From assembly GCF_009711975.1 (NCBI RefSeq), contig NZ_VIKW01000022.1, positions 1 through 64,000 of the forward strand: a DNA stretch of 64,000 nt, given 5' to 3'. Positions within the stretch are counted from its first letter, which is position 1. Every line of letters begins with the position of its first letter. This document shows positions 1,090 to 28,103 of the stretch, piece after piece. The notes beneath the pieces are model-generated. The model was given only the letters and a program-made list of their open reading frames with translations, was not told the DNA's origin and did not search any database. This DNA comes from Anabaena sp. UHCC 0204 (GTDB taxonomy: Bacteria; Cyanobacteriota; Cyanobacteriia; Cyanobacteriales; Nostocaceae). A program made the position numbers and the translations under genes.

Positions 1090-4000
1090 ATGAGTCAAGT
1101 CGGACAACCAGAACGCGCAACCCAAAACCGCGTAGTGCAACTATTCCAGCAACAACTAGGTTATACATACTTAGGAAATTGGCACTACCGCGAGAATAAC
1201 AGCAACGTTGAAACCGACCTACTCACCGCATTTTTACGCGATACCCAAAAATACAATCAAGACATTATCACCAAAGCCCTTCACGAACTAAATAAACTCA
1301 CCACAGACACAACCCCAAACCTCTACGACATCAACAAAGAAATTTATGGCTTATTACGCTACGGTATCAACATCAAACCAGAAGCAGGTGAAAATACTCA
1401 AAGCATTTACCTGATAAATTGGCAAGAACCCTTAAAAAATCACTTTTATATCGCTGAAGAAGTCAGCATTAAAGGCGAAAATAATAAACGACCAGATATA
1501 GTTTTATACATTAATGGCATCGCGTTAGCAGTTCTCGAACTCAAAAGTAGCACCGTACCCGTTTCCGAAGCTATCCGTCAAAACCTAGATAATCAAGAAT
1601 CATTATTTATTAAATCATTTTTTAATCCTATTCAATTAATCGCAGCAGGTAACGACACCCAAGGACTACGCTATGGAACAACAAAAACCTCAGAAAAATA
1701 TTATCTAACTTGGAAAGAAGACACTCATCAACATATCACAAACCCTTTAGACAAACATCTGCTGCAACTGTGCGAAAAACACCGCTTTCTCGACATCATT
1801 TATAACTTTATCCTCTTTGACGGGGGTATCAAAAAACTCTGTCGTTCTCACCAATATCTAGGCATAAAAGCCGCCCAAGACCACATAAACCGCCAAGAAG
1901 GTGGCATAATTTGGCACACTCAAGGTAGTGGAAAAAGCTTAACAATGGTCTGGTTAACCAAATGGATTCGGGAATTTAACCCTAAAGCTCGTGTTTTAAT
2001 TATCACCGACCGGGAAGAACTAGATGATCAAATCGAAGGCGTTTTTTTAGGTGTCAACGAAAACATCTACCGCACCAAAAGCGGACAAGATTTAATTACC
2101 CAACTCCAAAAAACCACACCTCCATTAATTTGTTCATTAATTCATAAATTCGGAAAAAAGAAAGAAAACCTAACCCCCCAACCCCCTTCCCTACAAGGGA
2201 ATGGGGAGAATTTAAAGCCTCTTTCCTCCCAGGAGAGAGGTTTGGAGAGAGGTTCTTCAGACTATGAAGACTATATAAAACAATTAAAAAGCAGCTTACC
2301 CAAAAACTTCCAACCTTACGGAGAGTTTTATGTATTTGTAGATGAATGTCATCGCACCCAAGCGGGGAAATTACATAAAGCCATGAAAGATATATTACCA
2401 AATGCCTTATTTATCGGCTTTACAGGAACACCATTATTAAAACAAGACAAACAAAGCAGTTTAGAAGTTTTTGGTAAATATATTCACACCTACAAATTTA
2501 ACGAAGCAGTCGGTGATAAAGTCGTTTTAGATTTACGTTATGAAGCGCGGAATGTTGAGCAGTATATCACCTCACAAACCAAAATTGATCAATGGTTTGC
2601 AGCCAAAACCCAAGGCTTAACAGAAACCGCAAAAGCCGAACTCAAAAAACGCTGGGGAACAATGCAAAAAGTCCTCAGTTCCAAATCACGACTTGAGGAA
2701 ATTGTCAAAGATATTTTATTAGATTTTAGCACCAAAGAACGACTAGCAAATGGCAAAGGTAACGCCATACTTGTAGCTGGAAGCATTTACCAAGCTTGTA
2801 AATATTATGAATTATTCCAAAATGCTGGTTTTACCAAATGTGCCATTATTACATCTTATGATCCTACCATCAAAAGTATCAAAGGTGAAAACACAGGAGA
2901 GGGAAAAACCGATAAAATACATCAATATGAAATCTATCAAAAAATGCTCAATGGACAAAATGCAGATAAATTTGAACAAGATGTAAAAAACAACTTTATC
3001 AATTCACCCGGAGAAATGCAATTATTAATAGTCGTGAACAAACTCTTAACAGGTTTTGATGCACCTCCCGCTACCTATCTTTATATAGATAAATCTATGG
3101 AAGATCATAATTTATTTCAAGCCGTTTGTCGCGTCAACCGTTTAGATAGTGAAGACAAAGAATATGGTTATATTATAGATTACAAAGACCTATTTAAAAG
3201 TTTAGAAAAATCCGTTAAAGATTACACCTCAGAAGTCTTTGCAGATTATGATATTGCTGATATAGCCGGGTTATTAAGTGACAGATTAGAAAAAGGCAAA
3301 AATGACCTAGACACCGCCAAAGAAGCCATTAAAGCCTTATGTGAACCTGTAAAACCGCCTTATCATACAGAAGATTATATTCTTTATTTTTGTGGTAATC
3401 CTCAAAACCCAGAAGATTTAAAAAAGCACGAACCGCAAAGATTAGTATTATATAAAAGTGTTAATTCCTTAATTAGAAATTATGCAAATATAGCCAATGA
3501 AATGGAAAAAGCAGGATATACAACGCGAGAAATTTATGATATTCAACAGGAAGTTAAACATTATCAAAAAGTCAGCCAAGAGGTAAAATTATCAAGTGGT
3601 GACTATATTGATTTTAAAGCCTATCAAAATGATATGCGTCACTTAATAGATAGTTATATTGGTGCGGAGGAAAGTCAAATTTTAGCAAACTTTGAAAATC
3701 TCACCTTAGTAGAATTAATAGTTAACAATGGTGTGAATGCAGTTGATAGTTTACCCCCAGGAATTAGAAACAATAAAACCGCAGTCGCGGAAACCATAGA
3801 GAACAACCTACGGAAATTAATTATTGAACAACAACCAACCAACCCGAAATATTTTGATAAAATGTCAACTTTGCTAAATGAACTAATTGAAAACCGCAAA
3901 ACCGCAACAGCAGACTATCAAAATTACTTACAGCAAATTGTCGAATTAGCTAAACAAGTTCAACAACCAAATACATCATCAGCATATCCCCAATCATTAA

Positions 4001-4215
4001 ACACCCCCGCAAAAATCGCATTATATGATAACCTAGATCAAAATGAAGAACTAGCGTTAACAATAGATGCAGTAATTCGTCAAACTAAACAAGATGGTTG
4101 GAGAGGAAATAACATCAAAAAAAGACAAGTAAAAAACGCCATTAAAAAATATTTACCAGCACCAGAAGAGATAGATAATATTATGGAAATTGTTAAAAAT
4201 CAAAATGAGTATTAA
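1090..4215 (+). CDS. hsdR: Type I restriction enzyme subunit R (HsdR)
   Basis: The 1041-residue length is typical. The N-terminal HsdR nuclease domain has the PD...E-x-K pattern at P135-D136 and E150-L-K152. The translocase has Walker A GSGKS at about 279-283, DECH at 418-421, the FTGTP motif, and NKLLTGFDAP and CRVNR in the second RecA lobe. A C-terminal helical region contacts the methylase. The subunit drives ATP-dependent DNA translocation and cleavage once HsdS has bound unmethylated DNA. Residues of about 360-389 are encoded by an interspersed repeat inserted in frame between the two conserved blocks (see 2168-2255). The gene is intact in frame and is followed by a YgjP-like metallopeptidase, a frequent neighbour of hsdR. 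Confidence 0.95.
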   Translation: MSQVGQPERATQNRVVQLFQQQLGYTYLGNWHYRENNSNVETDLLTAFLRDTQKYNQDIITKALHELNKLTTDTTPNLYDINKEIYGLLRYGINIKPEAGENTQSIYLINWQEPLKNHFYIAEEVSIKGENNKRPDIVLYINGIALAVLELKSSTVPVSEAIRQNLDNQESLFIKSFFNPIQLIAAGNDTQGLRYGTTKTSEKYYLTWKEDTHQHITNPLDKHLLQLCEKHRFLDIIYNFILFDGGIKKLCRSHQYLGIKAAQDHINRQEGGIIWHTQGSGKSLTMVWLTKWIREFNPKARVLIITDREELDDQIEGVFLGVNENIYRTKSGQDLITQLQKTTPPLICSLIHKFGKKKENLTPQPPSLQGNGENLKPLSSQERGLERGSSDYEDYIKQLKSSLPKNFQPYGEFYVFVDECHRTQAGKLHKAMKDILPNALFIGFTGTPLLKQDKQSSLEVFGKYIHTYKFNEAVGDKVVLDLRYEARNVEQYITSQTKIDQWFAAKTQGLTETAKAELKKRWGTMQKVLSSKSRLEEIVKDILLDFSTKERLANGKGNAILVAGSIYQACKYYELFQNAGFTKCAIITSYDPTIKSIKGENTGEGKTDKIHQYEIYQKMLNGQNADKFEQDVKNNFINSPGEMQLLIVVNKLLTGFDAPPATYLYIDKSMEDHNLFQAVCRVNRLDSEDKEYGYIIDYKDLFKSLEKSVKDYTSEVFADYDIADIAGLLSDRLEKGKNDLDTAKEAIKALCEPVKPPYHTEDYILYFCGNPQNPEDLKKHEPQRLVLYKSVNSLIRNYANIANEMEKAGYTTREIYDIQQEVKHYQKVSQEVKLSSGDYIDFKAYQNDMRHLIDSYIGAEESQILANFENLTLVELIVNNGVNAVDSLPPGIRNNKTAVAETIENNLRKLIIEQQPTNPKYFDKMSTLLNELIENRKTATADYQNYLQQIVELAKQVQQPNTSSAYPQSLNTPAKIALYDNLDQNEELALTIDAVIRQTKQDGWRGNNIKKRQVKNAIKKYLPAPEEIDNIMEIVKNQNEY
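2168..2255 (+). repeat. Interspersed cyanobacterial repeat translated within hsdR
   Basis: The DNA reads CCTAACCCCCCAACCCCC, then CTACAAGGGAATGGGGAG, then the AGGAGAGAGGTTTGGAGAG segment. This is the well-known family of short noncoding repeats scattered through cyanobacterial genomes. Here it is read in frame as a proline/serine/glycine-rich stretch (LTPQPPSLQGNG ... LSSQERGLERG), in a loop just upstream of the DECH helicase motif. Exact ends are approximate. Confidence 0.7.
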
Positions 4216-4441: not shown

Positions 4442-5149
4442 ATGACTCCTAATAATACCATGAAAACCTATCAAATAACCATCGCTGACATAATTATAGA
4501 TGTTGTCAGAAAAGATATTAAAAACCTACATTTAGCGGTTTATCCCCCAGATGGCCGCGTCAGAATTGCGACACCTTTACATATTAATGATGAATCTGTA
4601 CGGTTATTTGCAATTTCCAAATTAGCATGGATTAAAAAAAATCAAACTAAATTTCAATTAAAACCACGTCCAGAAACAATAGAATATTTATCAGGAGAAA
4701 ATCATTATTTTCAAGGTAAACCCTATACATTAAATGTAATTTATCAAAATCATCCCAAAGTAGAAATTAGAAATAATCAATATCTTGATTTATCTGTCAA
4801 ACCAGGAAGCGACAAAGAACAACGTCAAAAAGTCTTAAACTCTTGGTATCGTCAACAATTAAAAGCACAAATTCCCCCATTAATAGATAAATGGGAAAAG
4901 GTAATTAATGTGAATATAAATGAATGGGGAATAAAAATCATGAGAACCAAATGGGGTACTTGCAATATCCAAGCTAAACGCATTTGGTTAAATCTGGAAT
5001 TAGCTAAAAAAAATCCTTTATGTTTAGAATATGTGATAGTCCATGAAATTACTCATCTTTTAGAACGCAGTCACGGGGCTAAATTTCAGGCTTTAATGGA
5101 TAAATTTATGCCAAAATGGAGAGAATATAAAGCAGAATTAAACCGTTAG
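4442..5149 (+). CDS. YgjP-like (DUF45) zinc metallopeptidase
   Basis: The 235-residue protein carries the gluzincin motif HEITH at H201-E202-H205, with a further histidine in ERSHGAKF, ahead of the family's MPKWREYKAELN end. The upstream MRTKWGTCN segment is also a hallmark. YgjP/DUF45 proteins are predicted minigluzincin peptidases commonly encoded beside type I restriction genes; their substrate is unknown. The start at 4442 is an ATG; a second ATG six codons in (4460) is also possible. It lies 226 bases downstream of hsdR with a MITE between them, so co-transcription is plausible but not certain. Confidence 0.88.
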   Translation: MTPNNTMKTYQITIADIIIDVVRKDIKNLHLAVYPPDGRVRIATPLHINDESVRLFAISKLAWIKKNQTKFQLKPRPETIEYLSGENHYFQGKPYTLNVIYQNHPKVEIRNNQYLDLSVKPGSDKEQRQKVLNSWYRQQLKAQIPPLIDKWEKVINVNINEWGIKIMRTKWGTCNIQAKRIWLNLELAKKNPLCLEYVIVHEITHLLERSHGAKFQALMDKFMPKWREYKAELNR

Positions 5150-5240
5150 AAACCAAACTAATACCAAACCGTGAAAATAAACAGAAGTAGATGTAATAGG
5201 TAATAGGTAAAAATTTAACTAATTACCCATTACCTAATGA

Positions 5241-6242
5241 TTAAGCAGTTACCTTGTTACTTTCTAAATGAGCCAATCTTTCAGCTAATAGTTTTTCCAA
5301 AGAAATCAAAGCCTTGGTAAAACCATCAATACCTTCTGCAAGTTTATCAGAAGCCATGCGATCGCTATTGTGCATTTGCTCAAAGGTAGTTTTATCAAGA
5401 GAAATCTTAGCAATTGATAGATTTGCTACCTTAGCAGGATCAAGCTTCCGGGGTAATTCTGCCACAGTGTTTTGTAATTCTGTCAACAACCCTGGAGAAA
5501 TAGTTAACAAATCACAACCAGCAAGTTCAGTAATTTCGCCGATATTACGGAAACTAGCACCCATCACTTCAGTTTTATAACCAAACTTCTTATAGTAGTT
5601 ATAAATGGTAGTGACAGATAATACACCAGGATCTTCCGCAGCGGGGTAGCTATCGCGGCCAGTATCTTTCTTGTACCAGTCGAGAATGCGGCCGACAAAA
5701 GGAGAAATGAGAGTAATACCAGCTTCAGCACAGGCGATCGCTTGGTGCAGACCGAACAGTAAAGTTAAGTTACAATGAATACCTTCTTTTTCCAAAATTT
5801 CCGCAGCCTTGATACCTTCCCAAGTCGCAGCAATCTTTATTAAAACTCGCTCCGGAGAAATACCAGCAGCTTTATATTGAGCAATCAAATCTCGCGCTTT
5901 AGCCAGAGTAGCATCTGTATCGTAGGATAAACGAGCATCAACTTCTGTAGATACTCGACCAGGGATAATTTGCAAAATCTTCAATCCAAAAGCAACCGCC
6001 AAGCGGTCAAAAGCCAGGGACACTATCTGTGCTGGACTAGCACCTGCACCTGCATCTTTCTTCGCTGTCATTAAAGTTAGATCAACAATATTCTGATATT
6101 CCGGCATTTGTGCCGCCGCAGTAATCAGTGAGGGATTGGTAGTAGCATCTTGAGGTTTAAATTGTTCAATTGATTGGATGTCTCCAGTATCCGCTACTAC
6201 AACTGTTACTTCCCGCAGTTGCTCTAGTAAGTTTTTAGGCAT
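5241..6242 (-). CDS. tal: Transaldolase
   Basis: The 333-residue protein matches the classical TalB-type transaldolase. [22 protein letters not shown] near the N-terminus forms the first strand. The Schiff-base lysine is in [12 protein letters not shown], followed by CNLTLLFG and [13 protein letters not shown]. It moves dihydroxyacetone units between sugar phosphates in the oxidative pentose phosphate and related pathways (cytosol). It is last of three minus-strand carbon genes, after gap1 and pyk. The 133-base gap to pyk is filled by short repeats, so co-transcription is possible but the gap is long. No disrupted residues seen. Confidence 0.96.
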
Positions 6243-6249
6243 AACATAC

Positions 6250-6350
6250 TCCTTCGTCAGTTGTCAGGGGACAGGGGACAGGGAATAGGAGACAGGAAAT
6301 AGGGCAGGGAGAAGATGTTTCCCAATGACCAATGACCAATCACCAATTAC
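6250..6350. repeat. Short tandem repeats between pyk and tal
   Basis: The stretch has AGGGGACAGGGGACAGGG-type heptads followed by tandem CCAATGACCAATGACCAAT and CACCAATTACC units. These are low-complexity repeat families of the Nostocales type. No gene or clear terminator hairpin is visible. Confidence 0.55.
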
Positions 6351-6375
6351 CCTACCAATTACTATTTTAGATGTG

Positions 6376-7806
6376 TCAAGCAGTAATTGGCTGTCCAATA
6401 GAATGCACTTTAATTAAACTGGTTGTTCCTGATTGACCAATTGGGACACCAGAAGTAATTACCACCTTATTGCCTTCCTTAGCAAAACCACCTTCAACAA
6501 CACTGTTGACGACTTTCTCAAACATCTCTTCAGCAGTGTGAACTGGTGGAATCAGCAAAGGTTCTACACCCCAAGATAATGCTAACTGACGATAAGCAAT
6601 ATCCTCAGAAGTGAGAGTAATAATCGGAGTCAACGGACGGTACTTAGAAATTAATCTCGCGGTATTTCCCGATGTTGTATTGCAAAGAATAGCCTTAGCG
6701 CCGGTTTCATAAGCCATACGACATACAGATTGGGCAACTGATTCGGTGACACTCAAACGACCAGCTTCATGATTCCAAGTATGTCTAGCACCTTCCTGAA
6801 TTGCCTTTTCCGTTTCCACAGCAATATTGTGCATTGTTTGGACTGCGGCTATGGGATATGCTCCCACAGCGGTTTCTCCCGACAACATCACCGCATCCGT
6901 CCCATCTAAGATCGAGTTAGCAACGTCAGTCGCCTCGGCACGGGTAGGATCAGGGGCGCTAATCATTGACTCTAGCATTTGGGTAGCCGTAATCACTGGC
7001 TTACCAGCATGATTACAACGACGAATAATATCTTTTTGAATTAAAGGAACTCGATGAATCGGTACTTCTACGCCCAAATCACCACGGGCAATCATAATTG
7101 CATCAGCCACCTTGAGAATAGAATCTAACCGCTCTACAGCTTCGGCGCGTTCAATTTTAGCAATGAGGCGAATTTTTGCACCAGCAGCTTCAATCATCCG
7201 TTGGGCAGGTTCAAGGTCTTGAGGCGATCGCACAAAGGAAACTGCAACCCAGTCTACACCCAACTGAATCCCAAACCGCAAATCCATCAAATCCTTTTCT
7301 GTAATCGAACTCACAGGTAAAGGAGTCGCAGGTAAATTCACACCCTTATGAGTCGAAATTAATCCCCCAATCTTTACCTCAGCCCGAATTTTATCAGCAT
7401 CACGGCTAGTCACAGTCAACTTCACCCGACCATCATTAATTAAAATCGGTTCACCTGGTCGCATCATTGCAAACAAAGTTGGTAGAGGTAAAGGAATTTC
7501 ATCAATACTTTCCCCTTTATCTTGGAGGAGAAAAGTCACCTCGCTACCAGCTTCTAGCATTAACCCTTCTGGAGGTAACTTCCCCAACCGAATTTTTGGA
7601 CCACACAAATCCTGCATCACTGCTACTGGTTTATGTAAATCCTTACTAATTTGCCGCAAATGATGAAAAGTCTGGGCGTGTGCCTCATAAGCCCCATGAG
7701 AAAAATTTAGCCGAGCCACATTCATTCCCGCTTTTATCAAAGCTTCTAGCTTCTCTGGTGCAGAAGTAGCTGGACCAATAGTACAGATAATTTTAGTGCG
7801 ACGCAT
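6376..7806 (-). CDS. pyk: Pyruvate kinase
   Basis: At 476 residues this is a full-length pyruvate kinase: MRRTKIICTIGPA at the start, LNFSHG, the KIERAEAV catalytic-lysine region, MIARGDLGVEV, the TATQMLESM signature, MLSGETAVG, and a C-terminal regulatory-type domain. It converts phosphoenolpyruvate and ADP to pyruvate and ATP. The C domain is of normal size without the extra PEP-utiliser-like domain seen in some isozymes. It lies between gap1 and tal on the same strand, consistent with a role in sugar breakdown. Confidence 0.96.
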   Translation of the reverse strand: MRRTKIICTIGPATSAPEKLEALIKAGMNVARLNFSHGAYEAHAQTFHHLRQISKDLHKPVAVMQDLCGPKIRLGKLPPEGLMLEAGSEVTFLLQDKGESIDEIPLPLPTLFAMMRPGEPILINDGRVKLTVTSRDADKIRAEVKIGGLISTHKGVNLPATPLPVSSITEKDLMDLRFGIQLGVDWVAVSFVRSPQDLEPAQRMIEAAGAKIRLIAKIERAEAVERLDSILKVADAIMIARGDLGVEVPIHRVPLIQKDIIRRCNHAGKPVITATQMLESMISAPDPTRAEATDVANSILDGTDAVMLSGETAVGAYPIAAVQTMHNIAVETEKAIQEGARHTWNHEAGRLSVTESVAQSVCRMAYETGAKAILCNTTSGNTARLISKYRPLTPIITLTSEDIAYRQLALSWGVEPLLIPPVHTAEEMFEKVVNSVVEGGFAKEGNKVVITSGVPIGQSGTTSLIKVHSIGQPITA

Positions 7807-7848
7807 AACAAAATTAGGGAATAACGGTACGGTAGAAGCACTCAGTTA

Positions 7849-7936
7849 AGCCCAGGAGGGAGTAGGGGAGCGGAGGGGCAGGGGGCAGGGGGGCAGGGGA
7901 GCAGGGGGGCGGAGGAGCAGGGGAGCAGGGGAGAAT
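7849..7936 (+). repeat. G-rich tandem tract between gap1 and pyk
   Basis: The plus strand carries repeated GGGGAGCA, GGGGCAGG and GGGGGGC runs, with more than four separated runs of three or more G. It lies upstream of pyk, so the G-rich strand is the template strand and the pyk leader RNA would be C-rich. The sequence could form a G-quadruplex, but it also resembles the common GGGGAGCAGGGGAGCA filler repeat of cyanobacteria. Confidence 0.6.
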
Positions 7937-8009
7937 AATGTATCATCTATTGTCTTTTGCCTATTCCCTTCTTACTGTCACCTGTACACTGTCACCTTTA
8001 CCCTGTTAC

Positions 8010-9083
<1,074 letters not shown>

Positions 9084-9232
9084 TTAATTCTAATCTGACT
9101 TAGTTGATCGTTACAGTCACAAAAGGCATAAAGCTAATTTAACTGGCATATTTTAAGGTTTAGTCATTAGTTATTAGTTATTTGTGATCATTGGATACTT
9201 TGTTGATCTATCTGTGTATCTGTGTCACTTTT

Positions 9233-9751
9233 TCATCTTTTACCTATTTTCCAATCTTCACCACCAGGTAACTGAGTTAAAAGTTCAGCAATAACTTTTG
9301 GTAATTCTTTAACAGAATATAAATAAGTCAATTCCAAAAAATTCTCAGTGATAGAAATCACCTGTTCTCTATTTACTATTTCTGCTAATTGAAATTCATT
9401 ATAAATCCCATTCAAGACTTCTAAACTAGCATCAGCTATGGCTAATTCAATTTCATCTTCTAACCAACTATCCCATTCATCTTGATTGATATAATAGGAT
9501 TTTTTATTTTCTTTGAGATTTACTTTTTTAATTTCTATCAATGAATTGCGAATAGAAGCAACCCAAGAATTAGTTAATCTTTGTTCTATTTGGTTTTTAA
9601 TTAAATGAATTAACAAAATTCTCAAAAATGCTTGAATATTTCGTAAAATAGCTTGTTTACTCATCCCCTCTAATTCATCAACAATAGCTAAAGCGTCGGT
9701 GTAACGTTGTTCTATAATACTATTTCTCAGGTCTATTAATTCCTGGGTCAT
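9233..9751 (-). CDS. DUF29 family protein
   Basis: This 172-residue protein has the DUF29 layout: a helix-rich start (ELIDLRNSIIEQRYTDALAIVDELEGMSKQAILRNI), then LRILLIHLIKNQIEQRLTNSWVASI. DUF29 is widespread in cyanobacteria and has no established function. The second DUF29 protein of the window (30886-31383) belongs to a different subgroup. It has no signal peptide or membrane segment. It stands alone between gap1 and an orphan HicB gene. Confidence 0.75.
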   Translation of the reverse strand: MTQELIDLRNSIIEQRYTDALAIVDELEGMSKQAILRNIQAFLRILLIHLIKNQIEQRLTNSWVASIRNSLIEIKKVNLKENKKSYYINQDEWDSWLEDEIELAIADASLEVLNGIYNEFQLAEIVNREQVISITENFLELTYLYSVKELPKVIAELLTQLPGGEDWKIGKR

Positions 9752-17706: not shown

Positions 17707-17730
17707 TTCGTAATTAAGAGGATATTTTAA

Positions 17731-17775
17731 GTTTGGGTAAGTCTTCGGCTTTGACACCTACCAAGCTACCCAAAC
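17731..17775. terminator. Hairpin between dienelactone hydrolase gene and DGR template repeat
   Basis: GTTTGGGTA (17731-17739) pairs perfectly with TACCCAAAC (17767-17775) around a 27-base loop. It lies 25 bases after the hydrolase stop codon and may terminate that gene. Read on the minus strand it is about 105 bases beyond the template repeat, so it could equally be a structured part of the DGR template RNA. Confidence 0.4.
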
Positions 17776-17880
17776 CAGTTTGATATTAGGATGCTGTCAC
17801 CAACATCACAGGAACAGGTCTGGACTCTCCTTTGACACGCCCGACGAATTCCCATCCGTCAGTTCTGGTACAAGAGAGTG

Positions 17881-18008
17881 CTGGCAGCACCACCGCACAC
17901 TACCCGAAAACCCACATTGTTGTTACGGTTGTCGGGGGTATTCCTGTTGCGATTGGCAGAACGACACCACTTAGGGTTGTTGTTCCACGAACCACCGCGC
18001 AGCAGCCG
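17881..18008 (-). other. DGR template repeat (TR)
   Basis: On the minus strand this 128-base segment reads like the end of the variable gene but is rich in AAC/AAT codons: [18 protein letters not shown], then [12 protein letters not shown]. Compared with the variable repeat at 18268-18395, 115 positions are identical and 13 differ. Every difference is at an adenine of this copy (T on the plus strand), 13 of 27 adenines. Adenine-only substitution is the hallmark of DGR mutagenic retrohoming. AAY codons avoid stop codons under adenine change, as in known TRs. The segment has no start codon context of its own. It lies 252 bases downstream of the variable gene's stop on the same strand. Confidence 0.93.
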
Positions 18009-18260
18009 GAGTTGCCTGTCCCTTCTTTATCCTCTTGTTTGCACAAGAGAAATAAATAGCTGTTTAGGAATCTGATTTACAGATTCAGATTTATATGTTA
18101 TTATAAATCAAACCAAGGCTGTAAAAGTTTCTATTAAATTAAATAACGCGGCTTTCTGAAAAAGCCCAAAAATTAAAAAAAGATCGCTCCACTCCGTTAC
18201 GCTTGGTAAGGGTAAAGAGGAAAAGAGCAGAGGGCAAAAGGGCAAGAGTGTAAAGGGCTA
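18009..18260 (-). other. Spacer between variable gene and template repeat
   Basis: No gene is visible. It contains low-complexity purine-rich DNA near 18211-18255 (AAGAGGAAAAGAGCAGAGGG type) and a small hairpin GGCTTTCTGAAAAAGCC at 18152-18168. There is not enough room for an avd gene (typically over 100 codons). Confidence 0.5.
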
Positions 18261-19238
18261 CTAAGTCCTGGCAGCACCACCGCACACTACCCGAAAACCC
18301 ACAAGGCCGTTACGGACGTCGGGGGCAAGCCTGTTGCGAGTGGCAGAACGACACCACTCAGGGTAGTGGTTCCACGAACCACCGCGCAGCAGCCGATGTT
18401 GATTATCATTCTCATTTATCCATGCACTGCCGTCACTAGGTGCATCTTCATAGCTATCATGCCAACTATCGGCGCACCATTCCAAGACATTTCCGTGCAT
18501 ATCATATAAACCAAAGGCGTTGGGCGGAAAAGTTCCTATTGCTGTTGTTTGTACGCGATATTTTCCCTTGGGGGCATTACCATAAGTGTAGTTACCATCA
18601 TAGTTTACCACATCTGTGGTGATTGTGTCACCAAAAGCAAAAGGTTTTGCCGAACCAGCCCGACAAGCATATTCCCATTCCGCTTCACTGGGTAAGCGAT
18701 ATTGTCGTCCTGTTTTCTTAGCCAATCTAGCACAAAATTCGACGGCATCGTACCAAGATACTTGCTCTACTGGTAGTTTATCACCTTTGAAGTAAGAAGG
18801 GTGTGGATCTAGCCAATCCTCGATGGTAGGACAGGAATAAACTACCTTTTCCCATTGTTCCTGGGTAATGGTGTATTTCCCCAGGTAAAACGGTTTGACA
18901 GTTACATAGTGTTGGGGACGTTCATCATCATCACTATCTACTTCAATTTTTGGTGCGCCCATTAAAAATGTACCACCAGGAATATAGATCATTTCTAACT
19001 TAACACCAAAACCCAATTCTTCGATAAAAGATTGATTTGTTGCTGGAGTAAGAGAAGTTTTAGGTAGTTTATCTAATTCCTGTTGACGTTCAGAAATTTG
19101 TAGTTTAATTCTATTAATTTCACTATTGTACTGACCGATAAGCCGTGGATTTGTTTCATCTCGCCGCTTTTCTTCATACTGCTTGAGTAAATTAAAATCT
19201 TTTTCTAATTCTTCTTCGAGGTGCTGATGCAAATTCAC
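18261..19238 (-). CDS. DGR variable protein with FGE-sulfatase/C-type-lectin-like domain
   Basis: This 325-residue protein starts at a GTG (19238) with GGGAG just upstream inside the previous gene. Residues 1-60 form a charged helical hairpin module (DFNLLKQYEEKRRDETNPR). Residues of about 75-325 are an FGE-sulfatase domain: [69 protein letters not shown]. The catalytic cysteine position of true formylglycine-generating enzymes is not conserved in GGSWNHYPEW, so it should be a ligand-binding lectin-type fold and not an oxidase. The last 43 codons are the variable repeat; residues 291, 292, 294, 300, 304, 305, 308, 311 and 312 differ from the template. It is co-transcribed with 19242-19925. 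Confidence 0.92.
   Translation of the reverse strand: MNLHQHLEEELEKDFNLLKQYEEKRRDETNPRLIGQYNSEINRIKLQISERQQELDKLPKTSLTPATNQSFIEELGFGVKLEMIYIPGGTFLMGAPKIEVDSDDDERPQHYVTVKPFYLGKYTITQEQWEKVVYSCPTIEDWLDPHPSYFKGDKLPVEQVSWYDAVEFCARLAKKTGRQYRLPSEAEWEYACRAGSAKPFAFGDTITTDVVNYDGNYTYGNAPKGKYRVQTTAIGTFPPNAFGLYDMHGNVLEWCADSWHDSYEDAPSDGSAWINENDNQHRLLRGGSWNHYPEWCRSATRNRLAPDVRNGLVGFRVVCGGAART
18268..18395 (-). repeat. DGR variable repeat (VR)
   Basis: This 128-base segment forms codons 282-324 of the variable protein. It matches the template repeat at 17881-18008 without gaps; all 13 mismatches fall at template adenines. The last 36 bases before the stop, including the GC-rich GTGTGCGGTGGTGCTGCC, are identical in both copies. 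This is where the initiation-of-mutagenic-homing element would be expected. Confidence 0.93.
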
Positions 19239-19241
19239 TGC

Positions 19242-19925
19242 TTACTTTCTCCCTAATTTATTCATAATTTGCTCCCAAGCAGACTTGATATTAAAACCAG
19301 TTCCTAATTCTAGTTCACCTTCATAATTAACTAACAAGGGAACAATAGGAAAAGTGACTGTGATTTTATGTTTTGCATCTAATTGAGGAGATTTAATAAT
19401 TTCTGTAATTTCGGCTTGACTGCTAGGTGGTAAAGAAGGTATACGTTCCTCTAACACTGCCAACATCTGGTGCATTTCTGATTCAGATACCTGATTAGCT
19501 GCTACTGCATTTAATATATTTTCTGTCAGAGCTAATTGAGTTTGATTTAGCTGTTCGATAATAACTCTGAGGATGGATTGTTCCGCAGCATTATAACGAT
19601 TTAATAACGAATCATGATTAATAAGAACAATATTTAACTTTGCGTCTATTTGCTGTAATTGGCTTTCTACTAACTGTAATTGATTTCCTACCACCTGCAT
19701 TTGTGGTTCAGATATACCAATTAACTGTTGTTCTAGTTCGGTGTATTCTTGTCTATAGTTATTAATAGATTCCTTTTGTCGTTTAATTTCTTTTTTATAT
19801 TTCTTAAGTATGCGGGGGTTGTCTTCGACACTTAACTCTTCCTCAAATTCTTTAAGTAATTTTTGGTCTTGAGTAATGTTATCTAGTAAATCTGTCAGTC
19901 TCTGTTGGAAAATCTGAGAAAGCAT
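19242..19925 (-). CDS. Coiled-coil partner of the DGR variable protein
   Basis: This 227-residue protein was not recognised as a named family. Residues of about 17-65 (LLKEFEEELSVEDNPRILKK, YKKEIKRQKESINNY) match the N-terminal module of the variable protein (LLKQYEEKRRDETNPR, YNSEINRIKLQISERQ). A long coiled coil follows (about 65-170), then a beta-rich segment HKITVTFPIVPLLVNYEGEL and the end AWEQIMNKLGRK. It ends 3 bases before the variable gene's GTG, so both are translated from one message. The shared module suggests homotypic association of the two products, as with effector-associated adaptor domains in conflict systems; this is inference. Confidence 0.7.
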   Translation of the reverse strand: MLSQIFQQRLTDLLDNITQDQKLLKEFEEELSVEDNPRILKKYKKEIKRQKESINNYRQEYTELEQQLIGISEPQMQVVGNQLQLVESQLQQIDAKLNIVLINHDSLLNRYNAAEQSILRVIIEQLNQTQLALTENILNAVAANQVSESEMHQMLAVLEERIPSLPPSSQAEITEIIKSPQLDAKHKITVTFPIVPLLVNYEGELELGTGFNIKSAWEQIMNKLGRK

Positions 19926-20934: not shown

Positions 20935-21238
20935 CTAATCATTAATTGACAACAAACCAGGGGGAGGAGTGATTTCAACTCGACGGGTTTCTAAATCAAC
21001 AATAGGAACAATTTCCATGACAAAAGGAATTAAAATTGTTTTTCCGGCTTTATCTTCAGAAAAAGTAGCATCGAATTTGACTTCTAACAAATCATGACCT
21101 GAAGGTAATATATCTACTACTGTTCCTATAAATTGGCCAGATTCCTGCATGAAGACTTGCAATCCTAACAAATCTATCACATGAAATTCACCTTCTGCTA
21201 ATTCTGGTCGATCGCTTACAGGGACAAAAAACCGGAAA
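20935..21238 (-). pseudogene. Truncated copy of the 3' end of rimM
   Basis: On the minus strand the segment encodes FRFFVPVSDRPELAEGEFHV followed by DLLGLQVFMQESGQFIGTVV and an end ITPPPGLLSIND. This matches the C-terminal 100 residues of the full RimM at 27393-28103. Homology stops near 21238; the RNA-binding N-terminal half is absent, so it cannot be functional RimM. The two copies are direct repeats about 6.1 kb apart, with the duplicated toxin-like genes between them. Confidence 0.85.
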
Positions 21239-21513: not shown

Positions 21514-23310
21514 ATGAGCGAAATAACATTGGTTTCATTTTTAGATGAGGCAGCCGAAAATCAACGGAAGAAGGAGTTATCGATCACCCTCCAGTTTGAC
21601 AACGGAGATACAGAGAAATATTCGATTAATACTAAACCAGCAAGTAAATCTAAGTTGGTGTTTGAATCTGAGAAGTCAATTCTCAACAATTTATCTGTCC
21701 GCGAAGTGGTGAAGGGGTTGGATCATGCAGCCGATTTAATGTTTCTTGCATATAATGCCTTAGCAGCAAGAAAAAACGACTCGCTCCAAGCAACAGTGTC
21801 TGGATTACAGAAATCCCTGTTAGATGCCACGATGGAAGCCACTGTAACAATGGGGGTTTTTAAAACTAAGTCTGAAAAGGTCGTAAATGATGCGTTTAGT
21901 GCCTATAAATGGCTAGTCAAGGGTAAGGAGTCGTTGGCTCTAAAACAACTACAACGTTGTGGAGAGACGGCTTTGCAAATGGCGGATGAATCGCAAAAAC
22001 TAGCGGATCGTTTTCAGAAGATTGTTGATGAATCTCAGACTGCCGTGGAAGCAGCTATTACTCAGAAGGTGACCGATCAAAACACCAAGAAAAAACTACA
22101 AGAAAAGCTTAACCTGATCAAAACCCTTCAGACAAGAACTGTAGAGCTTCAGAAAAATATTCAAACAGACCTTGTTGCGGCACAAAAAGAATATGAAGAA
22201 GCCAGAGAGCGAGAAAAGGTTGAAGGTGAACGCGCTTTCATTACCGGAATAGTTGGGGCTACTATTGGCGCTTTGGCTGCTGGTGTTGGTGCGGGAATTC
22301 AAGCGGCGATCGCCATCAAGTCCCCCGTTGGACTTCCAGGAAGTCAATCAGGTGGTAATCAGCCAAGCGGTCAAGCCCCTTCACCAGAGATAGTGCAACA
22401 AAAGGAAAGTCTCAGCAAGCAATTGCAAGATAAAGAGGCAGCAAAGACCGCTATTTTTGCAGAGAAGACAGAAAACGACGCTCAAATCACAAAAGCTGAA
22501 GCAATTATCAAAGATCCTCAATCTCCAACACAGGCTAAGGCGGACGCAGAAACACAAAAGGCTGCGGCTGAGGCAAAACGTGCTGATATTGATAAAAAGC
22601 TAAAAGCGGCAGAAGAAGCTGTTAAAACTGTTTTATCAGGATTGAGCGGCGTGTCACAGCAACTTCAACAAATATCGAGCCAGTCATACTCGGCTGCGGA
22701 CACTGCGTCGAAACAGAAGATGGCATACTACGAACACAGAAATAAGCTGGCAGCAGAAAACCGAGAAGCGTTAGCTAATCTTGCACAATATGTAGTGGAA
22801 ATTAAATATACCACTGATGACACTAAGAATATAGAAACGGCAATCAAAAGTCTACAATTTGCCATTGAAGCTCTCAGCGGAGTTGTAGCTGCATTAAGTC
22901 AGACAACACTGTTCTGGCGTAATATGGCGAACTATTGTAAAGAAACTCTGGGAAGCACTAGCTTTACTGAAGACCTTGAATTTATCCAAAGTAGTTTTAC
23001 TTTAGAGGAACGGAAGGATTACTACTCTAGCGAGGACTTCATCCAAGGGGCGTTGGTTAATATAGCTCAATGGGTTGCACTGAATAATGTCTGCGATCAA
23101 TATCTGACAGCAGTAAACGAGGTATATGGCAAGGTAAATAAAAATGTCGGAAAACCACCATCCGATGACGAAGCAGCAGCCCAAGTCGCTGGATTAGCTC
23201 AAGCAGTTCTTAAATCTGCTCAAAATGAAGCTGCGGCTGTAGATGCTGAAATTGAGTCTTTTCGGAAGCAGATGCAGACTATAAATGTTTCAGCGCAACC
23301 AGTAAGCTAG
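21514..23310 (+). CDS. Large helical protein, candidate pore-forming toxin component (copy A1)
   Basis: This 598-residue protein is nearly all helix after an N-terminal beta segment (ITLVSFLDEA to KLVFESE). A hydrophobic glycine/alanine hairpin lies at about 241-268 (AFITGIVGATIGALAAGVGA), inside long coiled coils. It has no signal peptide. Residues near 430-470 read FAIEALSGVVAALSQTTLFW, then RNMANYC. It is paralogous to 24929-26275 (shared SVREVV/AADLMFLAYNALA and TLFWR motifs), which lacks most of the central insert. Long helices plus one buried hydrophobic hairpin resemble ClyA/XaxA/HBL-type helical toxins. The call is by architecture only; no family was confirmed. The signal-bearing gene at 23467 follows it. 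Confidence 0.5.
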   Translation: MSEITLVSFLDEAAENQRKKELSITLQFDNGDTEKYSINTKPASKSKLVFESEKSILNNLSVREVVKGLDHAADLMFLAYNALAARKNDSLQATVSGLQKSLLDATMEATVTMGVFKTKSEKVVNDAFSAYKWLVKGKESLALKQLQRCGETALQMADESQKLADRFQKIVDESQTAVEAAITQKVTDQNTKKKLQEKLNLIKTLQTRTVELQKNIQTDLVAAQKEYEEAREREKVEGERAFITGIVGATIGALAAGVGAGIQAAIAIKSPVGLPGSQSGGNQPSGQAPSPEIVQQKESLSKQLQDKEAAKTAIFAEKTENDAQITKAEAIIKDPQSPTQAKADAETQKAAAEAKRADIDKKLKAAEEAVKTVLSGLSGVSQQLQQISSQSYSAADTASKQKMAYYEHRNKLAAENREALANLAQYVVEIKYTTDDTKNIETAIKSLQFAIEALSGVVAALSQTTLFWRNMANYCKETLGSTSFTEDLEFIQSSFTLEERKDYYSSEDFIQGALVNIAQWVALNNVCDQYLTAVNEVYGKVNKNVGKPPSDDEAAAQVAGLAQAVLKSAQNEAAAVDAEIESFRKQMQTINVSAQPVS

Positions 23311-23410
23311 AGCATTTACAAAGGGCGATTAATAGGCACAGTTTTGTATCGCTTACTTTAATCTGTACTTTTAAGCGATATGGATGTCTATTATTGTCAT
23401 CCATATCTAC

Positions 23411-23511
23411 TCTAAAATTAAAACCAAAAACTACCTGTCTCAGTCATAAACAAGAAAAATTAGAGTATGAAAATGAAATTTTTGCTCCAAAAAAGCCTAC
23501 AAACTTCAGTC
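23411..23511 (+). repeat. 101-base direct repeat, copy 1 (upstream and start of B1)
   Basis: Identical over 101 bases to 24387-24487. It covers the leader and the first 15 codons of the gene at 23467, showing very recent duplication. Confidence 0.85.
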
Positions 23512-24291
23512 AAGTTTGTGTGGAAAACCTTAGTAGTTTTCATCCTATCTACGTTACTTTTCCTTCCCACACCCATATTGGCATTAGACTACAGTGGGAC
23601 TGTACAGTCATATATATCTGTTGTGAAGGTAGATATAGATGGCATAGTTACATCTATTAAAAAACTGCCAAATCTATCTTATGAGAATGGTAAAACTGCA
23701 CTGGCTGAGATAGACACCAAATTACAACAGATTCAAGGCAATGCTGGTAAAAATGCCATAGATTTCGAGAAGTTAAGAGATGAAGGGCAGAAAGAATCTA
23801 ATCAACTTCTAGATGAGATAAATAAGCTATATACTTCTCAACAAGCTTTAGAGAAGCAGGTACAGAGAAATCAAGTGGAATTCAAGCAAAAGCAAAGTGA
23901 ACTAGAACGCATTCAAAAGGCAGCAAAAATGCTGGGAACGCAAGTAGACAGTCAGTTCTTTCAAGGACTTGATAACTTTAAGAACTATGTGGAAAGAAAT
24001 AGGTCAGATATATTATTAATCCAGTCTAAGCTACAGTCATTAAAAGACAGTAGAGCAAAGTTAGAGACAGATAATCAGAGGCTATCTCAGGGAATAGTAT
24101 TAGCCGACAAAATATCCAAGTTGTCTACTAACATAAAAAATCGTGTCAACGATGCAAAACAGAAAACTAGCAATATCAAAGATTATGCGGAAGAATTAGA
24201 GTCTTTTAGCGATCAAGATATACTGAGCGAAATCAGCGAACTGGATCAATTTATTACGGATTTAACTAACAACCTCCCATTGGCAAGCTAG
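23467..24291 (+). CDS. Secreted coiled-coil protein (copy B1)
   Basis: This 274-residue protein has a basic start, a hydrophobic core (TLVVFILSTLLFLPTPILA) and an LALDYSG junction, so a Sec signal peptide of about 37 residues is likely. The mature protein is coiled coil throughout (LQQIQGNAGKNAIDFEKL; SQQALEKQVQRNQVEFKQKQ), ending SEISELDQFITDLTNNL. It is paralogous to 26420-27220, with the first 80 residues almost identical. It follows A1 by 156 bases. It could be the exported partner of a two-part helical toxin, or a surface protein. Confidence 0.6.
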   Translation: MKMKFLLQKSLQTSVKFVWKTLVVFILSTLLFLPTPILALDYSGTVQSYISVVKVDIDGIVTSIKKLPNLSYENGKTALAEIDTKLQQIQGNAGKNAIDFEKLRDEGQKESNQLLDEINKLYTSQQALEKQVQRNQVEFKQKQSELERIQKAAKMLGTQVDSQFFQGLDNFKNYVERNRSDILLIQSKLQSLKDSRAKLETDNQRLSQGIVLADKISKLSTNIKNRVNDAKQKTSNIKDYAEELESFSDQDILSEISELDQFITDLTNNLPLAS

Positions 24292-24928: not shown

Positions 24929-26275
24929 ATGAGTGAAATTACAATAGTTAACAACAACTCAATACCAGGATCGATCACACTTTCTATCAACGGTAAACAA
25001 GAAGTATATTCTGTGCAAAATCTTCCAGCAAGCGGCAGTCAATTAGTGCTGGAATCTCGCCAGGATATTTTAGGTAAATTGTCCATTGATTCCTTGGTTT
25101 CCAACTTTGAAAATGCGGCGGATTTTATGTTTTTGGCATACAACGCCTTAGCGGGTACAGAAGTTTGGACAAAAGTGTCTGGATTGCAGAAGTCACTGCT
25201 TGATATTTCTGGTGATTGCATGAATACACTTGACATTTTTGGTCTTCGCTCCCAAGAAGTCGCCAAAACTTTAATTAAGATCTATGGATTGTTATTACAA
25301 CGTAAAGACACGTTAGCCATAATTAAATTAAAATATTGTGCGGACCTTGCCCGCGATATGGCTAATGAATCAGAGCAATTAGCGGCAAAGATTTCAGAAC
25401 TTGGTAATCAATCCCAGGTTGTAAATGAAGATGCTATTAACCTAAAAACTCTGACTGAAGGCGAGAAGTCGAACCTGAATAAACAATTGAATGATTTTAA
25501 AGCAAAACAGGCAGCAGCCGAAACGCAACGTGAAAAGCTTAGAGAAGACATGGATAAGCTGTCCAAAGAATATTATGCCAGCGTCGCTAAACTCCAGGAT
25601 GGCTGGTTCATGGGTGCTGTTAAAGCGGTCGCTAACTTTTGCGGAATCAAAGTTCGAGATCCTAAGGAGGAAGCTCTACGGGAAACTCATGCTACCTACA
25701 TCAGAGACTCGCAAAGGCAAAATCAGTTAATCCTTGACAATTTGAATGATCTTAAACAATATGCAGCAGAAATTATGAAAGCGCAAAGTGCTGTTTCTGA
25801 GGCGGAAAAATCTGTTCAAACTTTCCATTATGCAATTCGCGCGCTCTCTGCAATAGTGTCCACATTAACTGATGCAACACTCTTCTGGCGTTCAATCGAG
25901 ACATATTGTAGGCAACTTGAAAGTTCAGACTTATCAAATACCGTTCAAGATTATCAGGGTGAATTATCTCCAGAGGAGCTAATTAAGGAATACTCTAGCC
26001 CGGAATTTATGGTGCTGTTCGTGAAAAATTTATCTCAATGGGTAGCTTTAGATAGCGTCTGTCGGGAATATCTAGTAGGAGCAAAAAATACATACAATAA
26101 AGTAGGAGCTAACATTGTCGCATCACCTTCAATTGACCAAGCAAAAGAACAAACACCTATATTAGCTAAACGGATTTTTGATTCTCTTGACAAACAGGTG
26201 AAAACTGTAGAAGCAGCGGCGGTAAAAGATAAAAGATGGGGGAATTATATAACAGTATTGAATGCTAGGTATTAG
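24929..26275 (+). CDS. Large helical protein, candidate pore-forming toxin component (copy A2)
   Basis: This 448-residue paralogue of A1 (21514-23310) has the same start (MSEIT), the same SLQK/SGLQKSLLD and AADFMFLAYNALAG segments and the same ALSAIVSTLTDATLFWRSIE block near 350. It lacks about 130 residues of A1's central region. Its hydrophobic stretch is shorter (GWFMGAVKAVANFCGI). It has no signal peptide. GGAG lies 9 bases before the ATG. It is followed by the signal-bearing B2. Function is unknown; see A1 for the toxin-like reasoning. Confidence 0.5.
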   Translation: MSEITIVNNNSIPGSITLSINGKQEVYSVQNLPASGSQLVLESRQDILGKLSIDSLVSNFENAADFMFLAYNALAGTEVWTKVSGLQKSLLDISGDCMNTLDIFGLRSQEVAKTLIKIYGLLLQRKDTLAIIKLKYCADLARDMANESEQLAAKISELGNQSQVVNEDAINLKTLTEGEKSNLNKQLNDFKAKQAAAETQREKLREDMDKLSKEYYASVAKLQDGWFMGAVKAVANFCGIKVRDPKEEALRETHATYIRDSQRQNQLILDNLNDLKQYAAEIMKAQSAVSEAEKSVQTFHYAIRALSAIVSTLTDATLFWRSIETYCRQLESSDLSNTVQDYQGELSPEELIKEYSSPEFMVLFVKNLSQWVALDSVCREYLVGAKNTYNKVGANIVASPSIDQAKEQTPILAKRIFDSLDKQVKTVEAAAVKDKRWGNYITVLNARY

Positions 26276-26419
26276 GTAAGAAGCAGTTAAACATCGGACA
26301 GGTGCAATAGATAGCATTTTTTGGTGCTTTGTCATCTATTGCCATCTATTGCTATCTAAACTTAAATCAAAAAACTACTGAGTTAATTTGTGGAAACCCA
26401 AAACTATCGGAGTATAAAC

Positions 26420-27220
26420 ATGAGATTCTTTATCAAGAAAAACCTACCAAGTCCAGTTAAGTTTGTCTTGAAAACCTTAGTAGTTTTCATCCTATCTGCC
26501 TTACTTTTCTTTCCTACACCCGTGTTGGCCTTAGACTACAGTGGCACTTTACAGTCCTATGTATCTAATGTGAAGGTAGAGTTAGATAGTGTATTAACAG
26601 CGATTAAAAAACTGCCAAATCTATCTTATGAGAATGGGAAAACAACACTGGCAGAGATAGAGAGTAAATTACAAAAAACTCAAACTGATGCTAGGAAAAA
26701 TGCCACAGATTTTCAGAAATTAAGCAATGAAACTCAGCAAGAATACAACAAAATCAATGACGATATCAAGAGTCTATATATCACCGAAGAAGCTTCGCAG
26801 AAGCAACTTGACGACTTACGTGAAAGGCAAAGGCTCAAACGTGCCGAGAACGAGAAGAAACTCTTAGCCTGGCTCATTGCATCGGATGATAGTCCCAATC
26901 CGCTAGTAATAGATGGTAGTTATGAAGAGTATGACAAATATCTCCAGTATGTTTTATCGTTAAATACTCAGTTAAAAAATCTCCAACTGAGTAGAGCCGA
27001 GTTAGAGAGCAAGAATCAGAGTCTGTCCGAGGTAATAGTCTTAACCAATAAAATCTCCAACCTGTCTGATAAGGTAGAAAAGCGAATTAAGTTGGCAAAC
27101 CAAAAATACGGTAACGTCAAAGACTATGCGGATGCACTTGCATCTTTTAGCGACCCGGATATATTAGGTGAAATCAGCGAACTAGATCAATTAATTGCGG
27201 ACATCAGTAAAGACCTTTAA
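26420..27220 (+). CDS. Secreted coiled-coil protein (copy B2)
   Basis: Starting at the ATG at 26420 (MRFFIKKNLPSPVKF) this makes 266 residues with a signal peptide core TLVVFILSALLFFPTPVLA. An upstream GTG at 26390 is less likely because the B1 start aligns with 26420. The body is coiled coil (KINDDIKSLYITEEASQKQL, DDLRERQRLKRAE), with an end SFSDPDILGEISELDQLIAD shared with B1. It pairs with A2. Confidence 0.6.
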   Translation: MRFFIKKNLPSPVKFVLKTLVVFILSALLFFPTPVLALDYSGTLQSYVSNVKVELDSVLTAIKKLPNLSYENGKTTLAEIESKLQKTQTDARKNATDFQKLSNETQQEYNKINDDIKSLYITEEASQKQLDDLRERQRLKRAENEKKLLAWLIASDDSPNPLVIDGSYEEYDKYLQYVLSLNTQLKNLQLSRAELESKNQSLSEVIVLTNKISNLSDKVEKRIKLANQKYGNVKDYADALASFSDPDILGEISELDQLIADISKDL

Positions 27221-27392: not shown

Positions 27393-28103
27393 CTAATTGT
27401 TAATGAATAATAAACCGGGGGGAGGAGTAATTTCCACTCGACGATTTTCTAAATCTACAATAGGGACAATTTCCATGACAAAGGGAATTAAAACATTTTT
27501 TGGTACTTTGTCAGTGGTCAACTCTTCATTATTAGCAATAAAAGCAGAATCGAATTGAACTTCTAATAAATCATGACCGGAAGGTAAGATATCCACAACC
27601 GTTCCTACAAATTCCCCAGATGATTGGAGAAAGACCTGCAATCCTAGTAAATCTAACACATGAAATTCACCTTCGGCTAATTGTGGGCGATCGCTCACAG
27701 GCACAAAAAACCGACAATCACGCATATTTTCAGCTTGATGGCGATCGCTTACTCCCTTCAATTTAATCACATAAAGATTCTTCCCATCAAGATACCGTCC
27801 ATTTAATAACTCTACAGGTTGGAGTTCCGTTTCCCCTGGACGTAATAACCAGCGTTTTCCCGGTTCTTCAAAGCGTTCAGGAAAATCAGTATTAGGATAA
27901 ACCCGCAACTCCCCAGTTAAACCTTGAGGTGAGACAATTTTGCCAATTTCCAACCAATCATCAAGATTAGGGACTGGGGACACTTCGACAAGCTCAGTGC
28001 GTCGCTGGGGACTGGGGACTGGTTTAGTCGGTTTAGGAGGGCGGGGAGACCCCGCCCCTACGGGTTTCTTCTTCTTCGTGTTCTTCGTGCCTTCGTGGTT
28101 CAT
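27393..28103 (-). CDS. rimM: Ribosome maturation factor RimM with repeat-derived N-terminal extension
   Basis: Residues of about 47-236 form a complete RimM: WLEIGKIVSPQGLTGELRVY (the OB-like RimM domain), FFVPVSDRPQLAEGEFHVLD, and the PRC-barrel-like end VDILPSGHDLLEVQF. It assists 16S rRNA processing and 30S maturation by binding S19. The first 46 residues are translated from three interspersed repeats (CACGAAGAACACGAAG, GGGCGGGGTCTCCCCGCCC, CACTGAGCTTGTCGAAGTG). The start ATG lies 5 bases after the avtA stop with AAGGA beside it. A shorter product from an internal non-AUG start is possible. The 3' third is duplicated at 20935-21238. Confidence 0.92.
   Translation of the reverse strand: MNHEGTKNTKKKKPVGAGSPRPPKPTKPVPSPQRRTELVEVSPVPNLDDWLEIGKIVSPQGLTGELRVYPNTDFPERFEEPGKRWLLRPGETELQPVELLNGRYLDGKNLYVIKLKGVSDRHQAENMRDCRFFVPVSDRPQLAEGEFHVLDLLGLQVFLQSSGEFVGTVVDILPSGHDLLEVQFDSAFIANNEELTTDKVPKNVLIPFVMEIVPIVDLENRRVEITPPPGLLFINN

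Follow-up and report, generated by a model that had tools for sequence, protein, structure and literature searches.

In the diversity-generating retroelement (DGR) of phage BPP-1, a spacer RNA located 3' of the template repeat (TR) recruits RT-Avd and primes the cDNA, according to the available part of PMC12875486. Remote targets using a shared TR are known in cyanobacteria (PMC7517822, accessible sections), and the expression of TR-RNA in Nostoc punctiforme was given as high in the text available from PMC12691664. In Nostoc sp. PCC 7120, all3226 was noted for 'remnant TR-VR homology' lacking an RT, which the accessible text of PMC7517822 interprets as leftovers after removal of the machinery. 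Diversification in trans was proposed for DGR 4 and DGR 5, two RT-less loci of Thiohalocapsa PB-PSB1 (PMC10907252, in the part available), and broken RTs beside clean variable repeats (VRs) were explained by very recent loss (PMC3521204, likewise in part). As far as their accessible text goes, the DGR surveys PMC7517822 and PMC3521204 begin from the RT, and the survey PMC8144416 states that remote targets would be missed.

The locus analyzed here lies in a stretch of 64,000 nt of genome G000, referred to as the window. Complete cyanobacterial DGRs, namely that on contig C48 of the same genome and that of Dolichospermum sp. UHCC 0259 (L097), resemble it in their FGE/C-type-lectin (CLec) target, in TR-VR differences restricted to adenines and in having the same structured RNA 3' of the TR. 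However, they carry avd and the RT gene beside the TR, whereas the window cassette retains a 39-nt RT fossil alone. The BPP-1 DGR is similar with regard to the 3' spacer RNA, the difference between IMH and IMH*, and adenine mutagenesis, but all its parts are found in a single locus; the structured RNA of the window may be seen as the counterpart of the BPP-1 spacer by position and logic only. As in all3226, TR-VR homology occurs in a CLec gene with no RT nearby, a likeness drawn from the description in PMC7517822, the available text of which describes neither a template RNA structure nor co-divergence. DGR 4 and DGR 5 of Thiohalocapsa are comparable as targets without a local RT for which diversification in trans is proposed; according to the accessible text, their VRs match the TR of DGR 2, whereas the window cassette brings a TR and a template RNA of its own. 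In the open-access literature, no report was found of RT-less cassettes that combine a structured template RNA of their own with TR-VR co-divergence.

Repeat pair, target gene and RT fossil of the window

The window cassette and its upstream neighbor comprise the following features:

17727..17885, minus strand: structured, spacer-like RNA directly 3' of TR1 that shares 5 nt with the TR end (scored at 176.3 bits by model R1, this element being among those used to build it)
17881..18008, minus strand: template repeat TR1 (ungapped against VR1; mismatches at 13/27 A and 0/101 non-A positions)
18009..18128, minus strand: conserved block upstream of TR1 (112/117 positions identical to genome G196, versus 107/139 for the remaining VR-TR gap)
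18027..18065, minus strand: fossil of a DGR RT gene, i.e., its last 12 codons and stop (KQLFISLVQTRG-stop, compared with RT tails such as QQIFASLAWTRG-stop)
18032..18049, minus strand: small hairpin CTCTTG/CAAGAG within the fossil, a weak candidate for an RNA element on the 5' side (across 14 relatives, 92.9% of cells are paired)
18252..18270, minus strand: IMH-like site at the VR end, AGGACTTAGTAGCCCTTT (G versus C switch, the same in VR2/TR2)
18261..19238, minus strand: target gene of 325 aa with an FGE-sulfatase (C-type-lectin-like) domain and a helical N-terminal part (PF03781, 210 bits)
18268..18395, minus strand: variable repeat VR1, the 3' end of the target gene (by alignment to TR1)
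19242..19925, minus strand: gene of 227 aa directly upstream of the target, family unassigned (no match in Pfam or NCBIfam; beside the target in G196, G046, G049 and G054)

The initial annotation had described TR1 and VR1 as two gap-free repeats of 128 nt with 13 differences, each at an adenine of the TR, and with every C, G and T of the TR unchanged. A base-by-base alignment of 17881-18008 with 18268-18395 gave the same picture, with differences at 13 of 27 A positions and at none of the 101 others. If 13 differences were placed at random, the probability of every one hitting an A would be 9.5e-11, in agreement with the view that this restriction is not random. Non-A mismatches start directly beyond the tract (18009 and 18010 on one side, and C in the TR versus G in the VR at position 17880 on the other); thus, these coordinates are the exact tract ends. 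The changes fall on first (eight) and second (five) codon positions and on no third position, and they alter the same nine residues that had been listed before. TR1 can encode 3.6e14 protein variants, a stop being possible at one codon. Judged from the sequence, the difference pattern is that of mutagenic retrohoming into an FGE/C-type-lectin-fold gene. The repeat 3' ends differ in the IMH/IMH* manner in both pairs of G000, with AGGACT in the VRs and AGCACT in the TRs; the site is IMH-like by sequence, and a motif resembling it recurs on four other contigs of G000, in a total of five sibling FGE genes.

The assignment of VR1 to the 3' end of an FGE/C-type-lectin-fold gene held, since the gene matches PF03781 and its alignment to the Treponema denticola variable protein 1 (2y3c), one of its solved relatives, runs through the VR. 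In a moderate-confidence AlphaFold model, residues 3-26 and 31-56 form helices. The model was not used to place the variable residues because its mean pLDDT is 62.4, with values below 50 at residues 201-260 and 274-314; homology alone suggests that the changed residues lie on the surface, as proposed in the initial annotation. A genome_contigs scan revealed relatives of the target protein and no orthologue of the cassette.

Upstream of TR1, the RT tail is in frame and its spacing to the TR is the same as in relatives with an RT. This in-frame tail at a conserved distance indicates a deletion that removed all but 39 nt of the RT gene. Among 30 family loci inspected over 1.5 kb, some of them cut by contig ends, a near-complete RT precedes the TR in 20, fragments in five and none in five, the window included. 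Like the RT gene, avd is missing at the window cassette. Covariation did not support the hairpin within the fossil as an RNA element (48/500 shuffles, not significant). The block 18009..18128 could possibly represent the promoter and the 5' part of the template RNA; a promoter scan gave no match on the minus strand and a single match on the other strand, the number expected by chance.

Enzymes and templates elsewhere in the genome

Reading the translations of the window open frames of at least 90 aa revealed no RT. The genome (5.74 Mb in 83 contigs, assembly completeness 99.99%) contains one RVT_1 match, on contig C48, and no DGR-type RT was found at the window locus. A search with the C48 RT itself returned only its own match, i.e., at E 1e-6 G000 yielded neither a second RT nor an RT fragment. 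The Avd family NF033474 exceeded its cut-off in G000 on C48 only, a second match on C17 being far below the cut-off, and no Avd gene was found with it at the window locus. Thus, the DGR interpretation of the initial annotation stood as far as the paired repeats, their rewriting at adenines alone and the FGE/CLec nature of the target are concerned, but a complete DGR at the window locus was rejected because neither RT nor Avd was found there.

The complete DGR of the genome is located near a contig end (L002, G000:C48:8000-17731, positions 5098-9257) and consists of a kinase-FGE target gene with VR2, Avd, RT, TR2 and a structured RNA. The best solved match of its RT is 8ub7 (5.6e-48), which we take to be the BPP-1 DGR RT complex. 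The RT carries the motif IGNLTSQ, which fits the DGR RT motif (I/V/L)GxxxSQ given in the accessible part of PMC3521204. VR2 differs from TR2 at 18/29 A and 0/96 non-A positions. TR2 was rejected as the template of VR1 on the basis of 14/78 non-A mismatches; VR2 showed 15/79 against TR1. Since neither VR fits the other TR, TR1/VR1 and TR2/VR2 are separate pairs.

The sibling FGE genes served as a control: five keep the IMH-like motif, yet those matched by a TR have accumulated non-A mismatches. TR1 matched six places on five contigs of G000 (C2, C5, C7, C15 twice and C30) with 8-22 non-A mismatches, and TR2 matched sibling genes at five places on four of these contigs with 7-18. The loci on C3, C22 and C82 gave no TR match at the threshold used. 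With 7-22 non-A mismatches to both TRs among the matches found, the sibling genes are unsupported as present targets. A third template was considered at C30:2660-2794 (L166) and discarded; this is a decayed fragment of the same template RNA (33 bits) that follows an FGE gene at a distance of about 1 kb, probably a dead satellite.

Template RNAs and RT-less elements in the family

The homology between TR1 and TR2 extends 3' beyond the repeat. An alignment of 30 family elements, including both of G000, over 169 columns yielded a fold with 42 pairs, 21 of them changed on both sides, and 97.9% of cells paired; none of 500 shuffles attained any of five covariation measures. For 14 RT-less elements alone, 38 pairs were kept, 20 with changes on both sides. 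Here, 0/500 shuffles reached four of the five measures and 173/500 the fifth (further pair types), and part of this covariation may predate the loss of the RT. Rfam gave no match in the window. In the window RNA fold (whole-fold z of -3.29), GGGACAGG before TR1 pairs with CCTGTTCC in the RNA; this long-range pairing is not claimed, since 137/200 composition shuffles of the 5' piece from the window pair too. Model R1 also recognized an intact DGR outside the family, in Planktothrix sp. PCC 11201 (L116, 8409-8567, 145 bits). Thus, the template RNA is not confined to the family.

A DNA query comprising TR and RNA, with three candidates scored per genome, matched 163 of 217 family genomes, the own genome included. 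R1 was run on 40 of these 163, picked chiefly for few contigs, and gave 58 matches in 31 genomes at E 0.001, of which 50 in 29 genomes scored at least 88.9 bits. For 23 of the 50 strong RNAs, an RT match spanning 300 aa or more, in some cases containing a stop, lies within 3 kb upstream, and one more (G048) has it downstream. The other 26 are without a full RT nearby (RT fragments in four, no RT in 22), counts that rest on 40 of 217 genomes of one family. Eleven of the RT-less elements are in genomes with a full RT elsewhere and 15 in 13 genomes without one. RVT_1 matches were examined in ten of these 13 genomes. While G001 had no match at all, ten of 24 motif-checked matches were of the QGxxxSP type and the other 14 had other non-DGR motifs or were unreadable. 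The 21 that aligned to the C48 RT did so at E 1.9e-21 or weaker, mostly with less than 30% identity; by comparison, 8ub7 aligned at 5.6e-48, against a larger library.

VRs were sought within about 5 kb of 23 of the 26 RT-less elements (G003, G072 and G105 left out). Six have a VR free of non-A mismatches (G000, G196, G048, G049, G167 and G102), four have one to three such mismatches, two have six to seven, and eleven have no VR nearby. All 24 RT-bearing loci scanned (G056 included, G014 left out) have a VR segment of at least 49 nt with at most two non-A mismatches. The RT-less targets vary at the N-terminus; of ten proteins scanned, five contained a caspase domain and two a kinase, and the remaining three gave no match other than FGE. 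Some RT-less matches look like VR-RNA fusions that perhaps arose from recombination between repeats. At L179, L184, L185, L187, L189, L195 and L197, a sequence resembling the end of an FGE gene stands directly before the template RNA, as if VR and TR had recombined with loss of all between.

In a tree of 44 RNAs (three RNA-only matches left out), in which 19 rows carried the RT-less label and the fragment-bearing G209 was unlabelled, this label required 4 changes, compared with a mean of 14.5 after shuffling. One clade consists of 13 RT-less RNAs (support 90/80, below the star level of the tool); the RNAs of C48 and TR1 fall into different clades. Within the RT-less clade, the VR followed its own TR at 12/12 sites for G102/G098, 23/25 for G102/G001 and 23/23 for G098/G001. 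In pairs with G155, where decay was apparent, agreement was 3/7, 9/15 and 20/28. The argument from this clade is weaker than that from the window because a downstream avd-RT, as in G048, could have been lost independently.

G048, G049 and G167, which represent two genera, have identical TRs; between their VRs, differences occur at 15-20 of the 27 A sites and at 0/94 non-A sites. The 600 nt before their VRs are 85-96% identical, and G049 and G167 have no full RT in the genome. An RT-less cassette on a caspase-FGE gene, with an identical TR and common to two genera, was observed at L181, L174 and L192. There, the homologous block stops at the RNA 3' end; past this point the flanking sequences are unrelated, which looks as though gene and template moved as a unit.

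Comparison with G196 and alternative explanations

In G196, which belongs to another genus, the cassette sits on one contig of 5.25 Mb between the same neighbors (the 227-aa gene, a hydrolase and a phosphoketolase) and has the same junction. Cassette, junction and neighbors being shared, the RT deletion most simply predates the split of G000 and G196. The two TRs differ at seven positions in the common tract of 125 nt, and at all seven each VR agrees with its own TR, either by identity or because the TR has A there. Since five of the seven fall within six adjacent positions, the independent events are fewer than seven. Each VR matches its own TR at every non-A position, and A positions differ at 13/27 in G000 and 8/28 in G196. 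Identity between the genomes is 94-96% for the TR, the RNA and the 120 nt upstream, compared with 89% for the 600 coding nt that precede the VR, 77% for the remaining gap and 82% for the downstream flank. The 7/7 agreement following a shared RT deletion indicates that retrohoming went on after the RT was lost, i.e., that it would have taken place in trans. As far as sequence comparison can tell, such co-divergence together with such conservation would not arise in a relic that was already frozen when the genomes split. By its RNA, the nearest intact DGR is that of G056 (same genus; order VR-VR-avd-RT-TR-RNA), with a sister grouping of 82/95.

An RT-deleted cassette that keeps its template RNA must use an RT in trans, or used one that has since been lost. 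We consider it quite probable that the window locus is an RT-less (non-autonomous, 'satellite') DGR cassette that was rewritten after the loss and is served in trans by RT-Avd made elsewhere. The comparisons indicate that an ancestral element with the RT gene directly before the TR lost this gene except for its last 12 codons before the lineages of G000 and G196 parted; avd, usually beside it, is absent as well. They show that TR1, the 3' structured RNA and the upstream block stayed conserved, and indicate that VR1 was still rewritten from TR1 after the loss. An RT-Avd complex encoded at another locus, that of C48 being the only candidate found in G000, would bind the TR1 transcript via its structured RNA and copy it into adenine-mutated cDNA. 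This cDNA would then home into VR1 at the IMH-like site, re-drawing the nine changed FGE/CLec residues.

Against the satellite reading stands the fact that the C48 RNA is of another clade than the TR1 RNA, so that either cross-recognition would be needed or a cognate RT was lately lost. The latter possibility, in which a cognate RT served TR1 until recently and is now lost or in an assembly gap, the C48 RT being inactive on TR1, is in line with the position of the TR1 RNA apart from the C48 clade and next to the intact DGR of G056, and an RT could lie in a gap because the genome is in 83 contigs. We hold it to be a tentative alternative, given that neither a second RT nor an RT fragment turned up in G000 at E 1e-6 and that the assembly is rated 99.99% complete. 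A dead remnant, in which loss of the RT is recent and the two repeats were frozen before non-A differences gathered, would also account for a locus without an RT. Such remnants have been described in print, and several RT-less elements of the family are decayed or without a VR nearby. Moreover, among the 23 RT-less elements scanned, five whose VR shows few mismatches or none are located in a genome without any full RT (G049, G167, G001, G098 and others), which means that a clean TR-VR pair can outlive its enzyme for some time. Nevertheless, this explanation is unlikely for the window because the deletion is common to another genus, the TRs have diverged since with the VRs following at every site and free of non-A mismatches, and both the RNA and the upstream block are better conserved than the flanks.

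Ordinary gene conversion between the repeats, combined with selection on the binding surface of the target and without any RT, would leave the non-A sites identical. It would, however, reset the A sites too, yet these differ in both G000 and G196, and differences confined to A would arise by chance with a probability of about 1e-10. The VRs of G048, G049 and G167, which differ at A sites only although the TRs are identical and the upstream 600 nt vary, speak against it as well; we consider gene conversion scarcely credible.

Beyond the window cassette and its proposed service in trans, the evidence is evenly balanced on whether the family holds long-lived non-autonomous 'satellite DGRs'. These would be composed of a CLec target end, a template and a structured RNA after loss of RT and avd, would persist across genera on caspase-like, kinase and short helical effector genes, and would be kept hypervariable by RT-Avd proteins belonging to other DGRs, including DGRs from a different RNA clade. 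In that case, a single enzyme would act on several independent templates. If so, RT-based DGR counts would overlook roughly every second template RNA of the sampled family genomes (26/50), and loci filed as dead remnants would in part still be diversifying, or would have done so until lately. The question of what the RT-Avd complex must see in a foreign template RNA would become testable, and the natural split into template plus target on the one hand and RT-Avd on the other would provide a model for targeted mutagenesis in which one enzyme works with several templates.

Other parts of the window contain further genes, named from their open frames. A type I restriction-like gene was read at 1090-4215 and a type III restriction-modification-like gene pair at 38911-43259. 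According to the translations, the short open frame 20935-21180 resembles a truncated copy of the RimM-like gene 27393-28103, and between the two lie two gene pairs that are alike, at 21514-24291 and 24929-27220.
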